DNA from: a bacterium
GTDB taxonomy: Bacteria > Campylobacterota > Campylobacteria > Campylobacterales > Sulfurimonadaceae
Length of the DNA: 7,243 nt
Direction of reading: 5' to 3'
Assembly (NCBI GenBank): GCA_018824795.1
Contig: JAHJFL010000133.1
Coordinates: 1 to 7,243, forward strand
Part shown: positions 4,154 to 7,243 of the stretch, piece by piece
Layout: every line of letters starts with the position of its first letter
Numbering within the stretch: the first letter of the stretch is position 1
Program-made: the position numbers and the translations under genes
The notes under the pieces: model-generated
What the model was told of the DNA's origin: nothing
The model's database searches: none
What the model saw: only the letters and a program-made list of their open reading frames with translations

Positions 4154-5191
4154 ATGAAGTTAGAAAAAAGCTATAAAGATTTTATTTTAGATTTAAAACA
4201 AAAAATTTATAGTGCAAAAAATAGAGCGATATTGTCAGCCAATAGATTGATGATTGAGCTGTATTTTGAGATTGGAAATCAAATTATCATAAACCAAGAA
4301 ACTTTGAGTTGGGGTAAATCTGTAGTTGAACAGATGTCAAAAGATTTACAAAGCGAATTTGGTGAAAAGAGTGGGTATTCTACGCAAAACCTGTGGTATA
4401 TGAGACAATTTTACTTGACATATAAAGACTCTCCAAATCTCCAACAGCTTGTTGGAGAAATTCCTTGGGGTCAAAACATTCTCATCTTTAGTAAGTGTAA
4501 ATCTGAAGATGAACAGGAATATTACATTAAAAACACCATAGAGTATGGTTGGAATCGTAATGTGCTTATGCACCACATTAAAACTGACTTATATACACGA
4601 GATGACAGTAAGAATCTTCAAAATAATTTTCGTGCAGCTCTGTCCCCAGAACTTTCTGAGCTTGCTATTGACATTGTAAAAAGTGAGTATAACTTGGAGT
4701 TTTTGGAAGTTTCAAAAGATGCTCATGAAAGACAAGTTGAAAACTCTCTAGTAGAAAATATTAAAAAGTTTCTATTAGAACTTGGGTATGGTTTTAGCTT
4801 TGTTGGGAATCAATACAAATTGTCGCTTGGTGAAAATGAGTATTTTTTAGATCTGTTGTTTTTTCATAGAAAATTGAATGCTTTAGTAGTCATAGAACTA
4901 AAAGTAGGAAAGTTTAAACCAGAATACGCAGGCAAAATGAACTTTTACTTAAACCTTTTAAATGACACTGTAAAATTACCACATGAAAACCCATCTATTG
5001 GCATTATCTTATGCACAGACAAAGATGGCTTGGAAGTAGAGTACGCTTTACAAAATGTGGCTCAGCCCATGGGTGTATCTACGTATGTTGTTCGAGATAA
5101 TCTCCCATCTGACATGAGTAAGTATTTTCCATCAAAAGAAGAATTAGAAAACAAATTGAATGAAAAATTAGAAGAGGAAAAGAAGATATGA
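4154..5191 (+). CDS. YhcG/DUF1016-family PDDEXK nuclease inserted in the rml operon
   Basis: The protein has 345 residues and the two-part YhcG architecture. The N-terminal DUF1016 region (about 1-160) carries the family-typical WGKSVVEQMSKDL (53-65), GYSTQNLWYMRQFY (74-87), IPWGQNILIF (103-112) and YGWNRNVL (131-138). The C-terminal nuclease domain (about 185-320) has Asp233 in EYFLDLLFFH, Glu248 and Lys250 in VVIELK, and the diagnostic FKPEYAGKMNFYLN (254-267). The D...ExK set is complete, so it looks catalytically intact. The family is considered nuclease-like from its fold; I know of no settled biological role, although members occur in restriction and other mobile or defence neighbourhoods. 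It starts one base after rmlA and overlaps rmlC by ATGA. Sampled lines have about 27-33% G+C against 38-40% in sugar genes, which suggests acquisition. A direct role in rhamnose synthesis is unlikely. Confidence 0.92.
   Translation: MKLEKSYKDFILDLKQKIYSAKNRAILSANRLMIELYFEIGNQIIINQETLSWGKSVVEQMSKDLQSEFGEKSGYSTQNLWYMRQFYLTYKDSPNLQQLVGEIPWGQNILIFSKCKSEDEQEYYIKNTIEYGWNRNVLMHHIKTDLYTRDDSKNLQNNFRAALSPELSELAIDIVKSEYNLEFLEVSKDAHERQVENSLVENIKKFLLELGYGFSFVGNQYKLSLGENEYFLDLLFFHRKLNALVVIELKVGKFKPEYAGKMNFYLNLLNDTVKLPHENPSIGIILCTDKDGLEVEYALQNVAQPMGVSTYVVRDNLPSDMSKYFPSKEELENKLNEKLEEEKKI
5175..5178 (+). promoter_or_regulatory. Ribosome binding site of rmlC, supplied by the nuclease gene
   Basis: AGGA within an A/G-rich tract lies nine bases before the rmlC ATG at 5188. 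It is inside the last codons of the nuclease gene, which encode the EKLEEEKK tail. The present rmlC initiation signal is therefore nuclease coding sequence. Confidence 0.55.
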
Positions 5192-5828: not shown

Positions 5829-6080
5829 ATGCAAGCAGTATTTTATTCACAAGCCAGAAATAACCTCAGAGATCTTATTAATAAAGTATGTGACGATTTT
5901 GATGAATACATCATCACAACAAAAGATGATAAATCAGCAGTACTGATTTCGTATGAGGAATATAGTGCTATGAAAGAAACGATGTATTTGTTGTCATCAA
6001 AAACCAATAGAGACAGATTGAATGAAGCGGTTGACCAAATAGAAAGCTTACAATTTGTAAAAAAAGATATTGATGTATGA
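5829..6080 (+). CDS. yefM: Type II antitoxin of the Phd/YefM family
   Basis: The 83-residue antitoxin is the same length as E. coli YefM, and it should neutralise the YoeB toxin encoded next to it and repress the operon. The N-terminal half (MQAVFYSQARNNLRDLINKV) matches the YefM DNA-binding and dimerisation region (YSEAR-N-L pattern). VLISYEEYSAMKET (38-51) is the conserved VLMSxEEYxxLxET segment. The C-terminal half (residues 52-83) is charged and helical and should be the toxin-wrapping part. The in-frame TTG at 5811 was rejected because it lies in the operator, whereas the ATG has an ideal ribosome binding site. The gene overlaps yoeB by ATGA. Sampled G+C is about 30%, lower than flanking rmlC and rmlD. 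Confidence 0.93.
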   Translation: MQAVFYSQARNNLRDLINKVCDDFDEYIITTKDDKSAVLISYEEYSAMKETMYLLSSKTNRDRLNEAVDQIESLQFVKKDIDV

Positions 6081-6337
6081 TTGTAGGATTTGCCGAAAGG
6101 GGATGGGAAGATTATCAGTACTGGGCTCAAAACGACAAAAAAATACTCAAAAGAATAAATTCATTGTTAGCAGATATTAAACGCAACCCTAATGACAATG
6201 GTGGTTTAGGTAAACCAGAGAGATTGAAAGAAAATTTTCAAGGATATTTTTCTCGAAGAATTACATCTGAGCATAGACTTGTATACAAAATTATAGAAGA
6301 TTTAATAGTTATAGCTCAGTGTCGGTATCATTATTAG
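6077..6337 (+). CDS. yoeB: YoeB/Txe-family mRNA interferase toxin
   Basis: This RelE-fold ribosome-dependent endoribonuclease cuts mRNA at the ribosomal A site when freed from YefM. At 86 residues it has every hallmark of an active toxin: Glu48 (GKPE), Arg67 (SEHRLVY) and the C-terminal RYHY with His85 and Tyr86. These match E. coli Glu46, Arg65, His83 and Tyr84 with a constant two-residue shift, caused by a longer NDNGGLG loop (39-45) before GKPE. FSRRITSEHRLVY (58-70) is the family core. It has no ribosome binding site of its own and depends on the ATGA overlap with yefM. Its TAG stop forms part of the AGGA site for rmlD, eight bases before the rmlD start. Confidence 0.94.
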   Translation: MIVGFAERGWEDYQYWAQNDKKILKRINSLLADIKRNPNDNGGLGKPERLKENFQGYFSRRITSEHRLVYKIIEDLIVIAQCRYHY

Positions 6338-6345: not shown

Positions 6346-7243
6346 ATGTGCAATATTTTAGTAACAGGAAGTAATGGCCAACTCGGTTCCGAGATACAAG
6401 AACTCTCATCTGAATATGCTTACAATTTTTACTTTACTGACAGAAACAACTTAGACATTACAGATGCAAACGCAATCAAAACATTTGTAAAGAAAAACTC
6501 CATAAACGCAGTCATAAACTGTGCAGCTTATACAGCCGTTGACAAAGCAGAGACAGATGAAGTAAACGCAAACGCAGTGAATCATTTGGCTGTAAAATAT
6601 TTAGCACAGATTGCAAAAGAGAAAAACATTACACTTATTCATGTATCGACTGACTATGTGTTTGACGGCACAAACTTTAAGCCTTATACAGAAGAAGATA
6701 GCACAAGCCCTAACAGCGTTTACGGAAAAACAAAGCTTGAGGGTGAAAACGCACTCAGAGAGATAAATCCTCCAAACGCAGTCATCATCAGAACCTCATG
6801 GGTTTACTCAAGCTATGGAGCAAACTTTGTAAAGACTATGTTGCGTTTAGGCAAAGAGAAAGAGTCTCTTGGAGTTATTTACGACCAAGTAGGAACACCT
6901 ACTTATGCAAGAGACTTGGCAAAAACTATTTTAGATATTCTGCCAAATATGGCCTCGTTCCCAACGTCCTCGTTGGGAATGCAGACAGATGGCAATACAG
7001 CAAGTACGAGCATGCATTCCCAAGCTGGAGCTTTGGAACGAGATGAAATTCAAAATTCAAAATTAGAAATTTATAATTATAGTAACGAAGGCGTTCTCAG
7101 CTGGTACGACTTTGCAAAAGAGATTATGCGCATGGCAAAGCTGGGTTGCCACATTAACCCAATAGAGACAAAAGAGTACCCAACACCGGCAACTAGACCA
7201 CACTACTCTTTACTGAACAAATCAAAGATAAAAAAAGAGTTTG
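6346..7243 (+). CDS. rmlD: dTDP-4-dehydrorhamnose reductase with an in-frame REP-like insertion, 3' end outside the window
   Basis: RmlD (RfbD) reduces dTDP-4-keto-L-rhamnose to dTDP-L-rhamnose with NAD(P)H. I read the frame codon by codon from ATG 6346 to the window end: 299 residues, no stop. TGSNGQLG (7-14) is the dinucleotide motif. STDYVFDG (101-108) holds Thr102, and YGKTK (126-130) holds Tyr126 and Lys130, completing the SDR catalytic set. RTSWVYS (149-155) and YSNEGVLSWYDFAKEI (from 245) are conserved, and the final RPHYSLLNKSKIKKEF shows that only a short C-terminal piece is missing. Family members are about 285-300 residues in full, whereas this one would be near 315-320. The excess is residues 202-234, encoded by a palindromic element between ILPN and QNSKLEIY. 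Both halves look undamaged, so the protein may still work. Confidence 0.93.
   Translation, partial: MCNILVTGSNGQLGSEIQELSSEYAYNFYFTDRNNLDITDANAIKTFVKKNSINAVINCAAYTAVDKAETDEVNANAVNHLAVKYLAQIAKEKNITLIHVSTDYVFDGTNFKPYTEEDSTSPNSVYGKTKLEGENALREINPPNAVIIRTSWVYSSYGANFVKTMLRLGKEKESLGVIYDQVGTPTYARDLAKTILDILPNMASFPTSSLGMQTDGNTASTSMHSQAGALERDEIQNSKLEIYNYSNEGVLSWYDFAKEIMRMAKLGCHINPIETKEYPTPATRPHYSLLNKSKIKKEF
6956..6981. repeat. REP-like hairpin unit 1
   Basis: TTCCCAACG (6958-6966) pairs perfectly with CGTTGGGAA (6971-6979) around a TCCT loop. A G-T pair and a C-G pair extend the stem outward. No run of T follows on either strand, so it is not an intrinsic terminator. Confidence 0.85.
7015..7040. repeat. 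REP-like hairpin unit 2, one stem mismatch
   Basis: TTCCCAAGCT (7017-7026) pairs with AGCTTTGGAA (7029-7038) around a GG loop with a single mismatch. The symmetric arm would be AGCTTGGGAA, so one base has probably changed since insertion. The stem sequence differs from unit 1 in the inner bases (AAGCT against AACG) while sharing TTCCCA. Confidence 0.8.
7046..7073 (+). repeat. Short degenerate heptanucleotide tandem repeat next to the REP-like element
   Basis: Four consecutive 7-base units read AAATTCA, AAATTCA, AAATTAG, AAATTTA. Only the first two are identical. The tract encodes residues around IQNSKLEIY of RmlD, which look like ordinary family sequence, so the periodicity may be chance in an AT-rich context. 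Confidence 0.35.

Follow-up and report, generated by a model that had tools for sequence, protein, structure and literature searches.

How does a palindrome come to lie within a biosynthetic gene whose reading frame stays open, and is such a case a lone accident or one of many? The question is raised by rmlD (dTDP-4-dehydrorhamnose reductase; 6346..7243), identified by its matches to TIGR01214, PF04321 and known structures, and cut at its 3′ end by the window, by which we mean the whole stretch of 7,243 nucleotides that was analysed; rmlD and the parts of it located here are on its forward strand. The window carries a nucleotide-sugar operon of a Sulfurimonas-like bacterium, in the order gmd (cut), fcl, manC, rmlA, a YhcG-type nuclease, rmlC, a Phd/YoeB pair and rmlD. 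The YhcG-type PDDEXK nuclease (4154-5191) and the Phd/YoeB toxin-antitoxin pair (5829-6337) are interleaved between rmlA, rmlC and rmlD, and the spacing of aligned blocks suggests that both are absent from the same operon of G159, the closest relative compared. Fcl (GDP-fucose synthase) has 13 extra residues at about 1534-1587 relative to L050, the only homologue shown, and no palindrome was recognised in that stretch when looked for by eye.

The insert in rmlD consists of 33 complete codons (6949..7047), which encode RmlD residues 202-234 (MASFPTSSLGMQTDGNTASTSMHSQAGALERDE) and are missing in G159; in pairwise alignment they appear as 33 amino acids placed after reference residue 201. Nested in them is a pair of inverted units (6954..7042), made up of unit A (CTCGTTCCCAACGTCCTCGTTGGGAATGCA; 6954..6983), a spacer (6984..7012) and unit B in inverted orientation (TGCATTCCCAAGCTGGAGCTTTGGAACGAG; 7013..7042). 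These arms, 30 nt each, 29 nt apart and 80% complementary, are the longest among the 38 inverted pairs of the window. The two hairpin units, the perfect match of the outer 8 bp (CTCGTTCC/GGAACGAG) and the one decayed stem base in the second unit, all pointed out in the initial annotation, can be read directly in the sequence, and the frame of rmlD runs through the insert uninterrupted. Compared with shuffles that preserve base content only, the 89-nt dimer folds with a z score of -4.5 and the 99-nt insert with -3.7, the corresponding values for 13 segments of the same length from the same gene being -0.3 on average and -2.1 at minimum. The dimer is open in all six reading frames, as were 0 of 2000 shuffles; little weight is given to this, because the other families tested were not unusual in that respect. 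The idea of an RNA family was dropped, as no Rfam family matched the window at gathering thresholds. No clear target duplication was seen.

The empty site is provided by G159, which is identical to the window at 89% of DNA positions over manC-rmlA (1275/1429) and at 86% over the first part of rmlD (513/599). There the insert is absent, the sequence reads ...CTGCCAAAC|ATTAAGAATGAGAAAGTTGAAATT, and the eight codons downstream of the site align one to one with those of the window. Since G159 reads straight through with its codons in register, the window is longer there by exactly 99 nt (33 codons). The protein nevertheless scores 292.6 bits against the NCBIfam rmlD model TIGR01214 (cut-off 224.05), and its AlphaFold2 model, with a mean pLDDT of 89.8 and blocks of 43-68 in the insert, matches the RmlD structures 1vl0, 3sc6 and 1kbz (Foldseek against 1vl0_A: TM 0.84 by query, 0.89 by target). 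In this model the insert forms a low-confidence loop that joins helix 188-202 (codons 6907..6951, reaching the first codon of the insert) to strand 241-244 (codons 7066..7077, after the loop), which agrees with the loop location proposed earlier; its low pLDDT is a weak sign of disorder, because the aligned rows are without this insert. As the insert is a multiple of three and stop-free, the predicted product is an RmlD of normal fold that carries about 33 additional residues, probably without fixed structure. The inverted repeat, the frame, the RmlD model score and the empty site of G159 together uphold the original reading of a REP-like palindrome placed in frame inside an uninterrupted rmlD.

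REPs are by definition extragenic. As judged from sequence comparison, the insert consists of two REP units in inverted arrangement that belong to a dispersed family, here labelled F1. Matches to F1 were found in 18 of the 46 genomes behind loci L001-L048 (E<=0.01), with 26 matches as the highest count in one genome, and in 49 of the 135 genomes of the genus of G159 (E<=0.001), these copy counts coming from the genomes of relatives and not from the window's own. The lack of a second copy, which the initial annotation had named as evidence against a mobile palindrome, is not what the relatives present: F1 copies lie elsewhere in their genomes. Fetched loci yielded 73 distinct places with F1, of which 68 are outside ORFs of 120 aa or more; the five inside an ORF (at least 120 aa long, with at least 30 aa on each side) comprise two in PriA, one in an ORF without a Pfam family match and two others. 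PriA was recognised as an F1 host from such DNA places and not from a peptide search, in which the REP peptide used as query matched only P0001-P0004 and F1 in other proteins was not found.

The dimer of the window aligns with F1 dimers elsewhere, which were read at 36 distinct places in total (the window and 35 others, from 49 readings); the outer units are conserved and the spacer is variable. The stem of unit A varies among these copies by paired changes (AACG/CGTT, AATG/CATT, ATCG/CGAT). The tags next to the stem are GTCT and GCAT in the window, and in 34 F1 units at distinct places they are GTAT (12), ATAT (8), GTCT (5), GTAG (1) and others (8), so that F1 mostly lacks the GTAG at the foot of the stem by which the GTAG REP superfamily is defined. 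A single F1 unit is also found beside or between pilin-like genes (names assigned by reading) upstream of priA in L297-L304, L306 and L311; it lies outside genes, in eight to ten chosen genomes, and is possibly an orthologous intergenic REP. In G019 (L157, L158), a genome without a Y1_Tnp match, F1 units are clustered within about 1.7 kb at two places.

The family has a candidate agent of movement. In G041 two F1 units, near-identical to unit B of the window, flank a RAYT gene (NCBIfam NF047646, 97.7 bits, cut-off 80), and near-identical copies of unit B occur in other RAYT loci as well. RAYT matches are present in 118 of the 228 genomes of the family of G016, above the cut-off in 35 of them. 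Thirty RAYT loci were fetched, and 15 of them contain an F1 unit, which often lies no more than some 150 nt from one end of the matched part or from both; the count in reversed-sequence controls was 0 of 30, and F1 is thereby tied to a RAYT class. The search for a REP-associated tyrosine transposase that had been recommended was thus fruitful in relatives, and the assignment of the palindrome to a mobile kind is borne out by dispersal and RAYT linkage alike. In G016, copies of another family (F6) surround a Y1 transposase gene scoring 67 bits, below the RAYT cut-off. Passages of PMC8266576 describe BIMEs as a REP together with an inverted REP, and changes of the tetranucleotide tag that are tolerated by some RAYTs. 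F1 resembles such REP/BIME systems with RAYT (REPtrons) in its short imperfect palindromes, arranged as an inverted pair of two unit types, and in being dispersed, mostly intergenic and located beside a REP-associated tyrosine transposase (TnpA-REP) in relatives; it differs in that its tag is mostly GTAT, ATAT or GTCT and not GTAG, and in that the window copy lies inside a coding gene.

The extra 99 nt are very probably a RAYT-linked REP dimer (BIME) in an rmlD loop, one of the palindromes that persist in protein-tolerant loops. An F1 dimer would have been inserted, or would have arrived by allele exchange, in the loop joining helix 188-202 to the next strand, and a RAYT, if still active, would move the REP by way of single-stranded DNA, in the manner suggested for REPtrons. 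REPs of several families presumably insert at many sites, and in coding DNA they would persist mainly where the protein tolerates extra residues, that is, in RmlD near 17-27, 196-208 and 245, in RmlB near consensus position 141 (perhaps 290), and in the PriA linker between the DNA-binding and helicase domains, with purifying selection acting as the likely filter that removes insertions elsewhere in coding DNA. The in-frame insert, the dispersal in relatives, the RAYT linkage, the recurrence at loops and the near absence from RmlA and RmlC are the demonstrated parts of this reading.

Recurrence was assessed on 284 RmlD rows, which combine 120 proteins with 164 rows from loci and in part represent one gene twice, from two sources (268 of the 283 rows used for trees differ in the compared columns); four loci whose RmlD loop could not be read were omitted. 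Loop 196-208 holds an insert of at least 5 aa in 34 of the 284 rows and none that long in 250, so the initial annotation's alternative of a conserved domain segment carried by all relatives is ruled out. Other places with inserts of at least 5 aa are near 17-27 (22 rows), 245 (2 rows) and 89 (1 row). Only three of the 34 rows are from outside Campylobacterota (L069, L071, L073), and within loop 196-208 the points of insertion are scattered across about 13 codons. Of 103 RmlD loops read in the family of G016, 91 have 10 aa and 12 have at least 14 aa, the longer ones being mostly palindromes of families other than F1. About seven palindrome families can be distinguished among the inserts of this loop, under labels F1-F8 that were assigned by eye: besides F1 there are CGTCATTGCGAGGAACGAAGCAATC (F2), CGTCATTCTGAACTTGATTCAGAATC (F3), a TTCCCGC type (F4) and three GG..CC types (F5-F7). 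F2 and F3 have a CGTC tag in the analysed loci; F2-F4 may share the CGTC class, and F5-F7 may be related to one another. Contrary to what had been assumed, the event is not a single one: the same loop holds several different palindromes in relatives, and loops of RmlB and PriA do so too.

Several of these palindromes are repeated within the genomes that carry them: a query joining ten inserts matched most often in G011 (83), G020 (57), G161 (43), G142 (43) and G016 (38) and hardly at all in G029 (2), G184 (2) and G009 (1), in totals that mix families and may count one palindrome on both strands. In Campylobacterota the inserts at loop 196-208 mostly fold better than shuffles, but of the labelled ones L009 scarcely folds (z -1.3) and L025, taken for an F3 remnant, does not (z 0.3). 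The long RmlD loops of non-Campylobacterota L052, L054, L055, L071 and L073 have z values of -0.9 to 0.5, that of L079 has -2.7, and L042 and L073 are tandem repeats. Among the eight inserts tested in the first loop, L128, L016 and L029 reach z <= -3 and the others range from -1.8 to 0.9; both inserts at loop 245 fold (z -2.4 and -4.5). In L128 and L016, one palindrome family is present in two RmlD loops. Two side observations concern individual loci: in L011 and L127 the rmlD loop combines an F2 palindrome with a tandem duplication that takes in the coding stretch after it (NVQMYHYSN occurs twice), and the record of L029 is titled Planctomycetota and is possibly a mixed bin, its rmlD being Sulfurimonas-like.

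How many events do these inserts represent? On a FastTree of 283 rows (one of the 284 was dropped), with the loops excluded, 25 changes are required if labelled inserts are scored as present or absent and 29 if the nine labels are told apart; the F1 carriers taken by themselves require 5. An IQ-TREE of 100 rows, picked as neighbours of insert carriers, contains for the rest of the protein a 13-row clade (SH-aLRT 97) in which three rows have F1, two F2, one F4 and seven none, several of the seven insert-free rows being near-identical; F1 alone needs 4 changes on this tree, and its starred branches force 3. Such changes may be gains, losses or allele transfers. For F1, the spread of an F1-bearing rmlD allele or rml operon segment by homologous recombination or transfer among Sulfurimonas-like bacteria is a serious rival, because five F1-carrying RmlDs have a spacer peptide in common, with few changes, although spacers differ in the dimers of other genomes, and because the spacer 26-mer of the window, allowing up to 3 mismatches, matched 0 of 228 genomes. 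At the level of sequence, the shared spacer suggests transmission, among the five carriers, of an rmlD allele or of a local BIME subfamily. The 5 or 4 changes needed by F1 on these trees point the same way, as does the identity of the insert, which at least equals that of the rest of the protein: its peptide is identical at 31/31 positions among P0001, P0002 and P0003, and the remainder is 0.89-0.91 identical. On the other hand, the left junctions of the F1 inserts differ (PNM, QNSKF, PKIDEP, SKT, PKIGSEV), with the residues QNSK standing after the insert in P0001 and before it in P0002, and the spread of one allele does not explain why that loop also holds palindromes of several other families. 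We consider this explanation credible, at somewhat less than an even chance. The suggestion that the element has been kept for some time, drawn from its decayed stem base, stands only weakly, as an identical insert peptide fits a young copy or a shared allele equally well.

The reading of a REP dimer in a tolerant loop can be compared with what happens in neighbouring genes. RmlB has inserts of at least 8 aa in 13 of 68 rows, ten of them near position 141; seven of the 13 fold with z <= -2, and those at position 290 are weak (-2.1 to 0.5). Across Campylobacterota loci, internal inserts of at least 8 aa occur in 17 of 61 RmlB, 9 of 70 RmlD, 0 of 67 RmlA and 1 of 65 RmlC rows, with z <= -2 in 10, 7, 0 and 1 of these, respectively. 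Taken together, RmlB and RmlD have 26/131 and RmlA and RmlC 1/132 (Fisher p 5e-8, on rows that are not independent), the sole RmlC insert having a z of -0.4, or -2.2 with longer flanks. Because the same operons, in largely the same genomes, give a different outcome for different proteins, a protein-tolerance filter is favoured over a regional DNA hot spot. In G020, 3 of 58 F3 units were read inside ORFs, all in the rml region (two in RmlB, one in RmlD), and its RmlB scores 458.1 bits against TIGR01181 (cut-off 365.1). G011 stands in contrast and counts against this reading, with 7 of 14 F2 units from eight fetched regions inside ORFs by the criterion used; two of them are in a PriA fragment, though the other five are in ORFs that contain runs of N or consist of repeats.

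PriA linkers (n=30, the best matches to an insert-carrying PriA, query included) range from 17 to 52 aa, and 14 of them fold with z <= -3; these counts are restricted to L267-L296, because L297-L316 had been selected for having REPs or long ORFs. Palindromes of different families are stacked in the linkers of L273, L286, L288, L298, L304-L306 and L314, and in L314 the flanking motifs are separated by 135 aa. It is conceivable that the loops are insertion hot spots at the DNA level, where the next REP is drawn in by a palindrome already there or by the local sequence, since families can lie side by side: F1-like and F2-like units in the PriA linker of G159, two F1 units in that of L286, and F5-like and F2-like peptides together in the RmlB of G011 (L127). 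However, a tolerance filter predicts the same stacking, the insert points are spread over about 13 codons, and the neighbouring rmlA and rmlC are nearly free of inserts, so that we regard hot spots as unlikely. Equally doubtful is the broader proposal that RmlD 17-27, 196-208 and 245, RmlB 141 and the PriA linker are standing acceptors, which palindromes of several unrelated mobile families enter and stack in time and again because more than tolerance draws or keeps them there, be it palindrome-on-palindrome targeting or, as improbably, selection for variable loops or hairpins in surface-sugar and replication-restart genes.

Retention of the palindrome for a function, as an mRNA hairpin tuning rmlD or rmlB output or as a loop for protein contacts, would fit the occurrence of hairpins of several families in several genes (rmlB, rmlD, priA) and the unchanged insert peptide of the closest F1 carriers. 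Most relatives are nevertheless insert-free, as the 10-aa loops of 91 of 103 rmlD genes illustrate, families, lengths and peptides differ, and the tests for conservation of the insert have little force (Fisher p 0.04-0.32), which makes a function of this kind very unlikely. A chance inverted repeat or an assembly artefact, which the single contig might bring to mind, is highly improbable given a near-same insert in four other RmlD sequences, an F1 family in dozens of genomes and fold z values of -3.7 to -4.5.

The REP dimer in rmlD has parallels in other bacteria. Rickettsia palindromic elements (RPEs), as characterised in passages of PMC10969869, are in-frame palindromes of ~150 bp in unrelated genes. 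The window element is like them in being a palindrome inserted in a protein gene with the frame intact, and unlike them in its length (89-99 nt), its link to RAYT and its non-Rickettsia host, and in that given loops of given genes have repeatedly received several families. The description of the insert as an RPE-like event, which was put forward in the initial annotation, therefore holds in effect, whereas the element itself is one REP dimer (BIME), and RPEs were compared by description only. Nor is Rickettsia the one case of palindromes within genes: parts of PMC3733652 report REPs wholly within ORFs in several genera, dimers that encode 20-30 aa, several REPs in DNA repair genes, and, in recB of X. 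campestris and X. oryzae, REPs that differ between the two species but occupy roughly the same site. To these intragenic GTAG/CGTC REPs the window is linked by a REP dimer inside an ORF, and F2 and F3 by their CGTC tag. The main text of PMC3733652, as distinct from the list of target ORFs in its Additional file 3, does not contain RmlB, RmlD, dTDP, rfb, PriA, primosom or rhamnose, and palindromes in RmlB, RmlD or PriA do not appear among the titles and abstract openings of the matches listed, which does not prove that none exist. REPs in frame, like RPEs, are already in print; what is new is the recurrent acceptor loops with several families.

The feature in rmlD is real, and the recurrent acceptor loops are more interesting than the lone insert. 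The same few protein loops have been filled many times, even in a clade whose enzymes are otherwise about 90% identical. Empty and filled sites could be used to date REP activity. The loops form a natural map of insertion tolerance in what look like working enzymes, and they make it possible to test whether proteins gain new peptide from mobile palindromes in bacteria other than Rickettsia.
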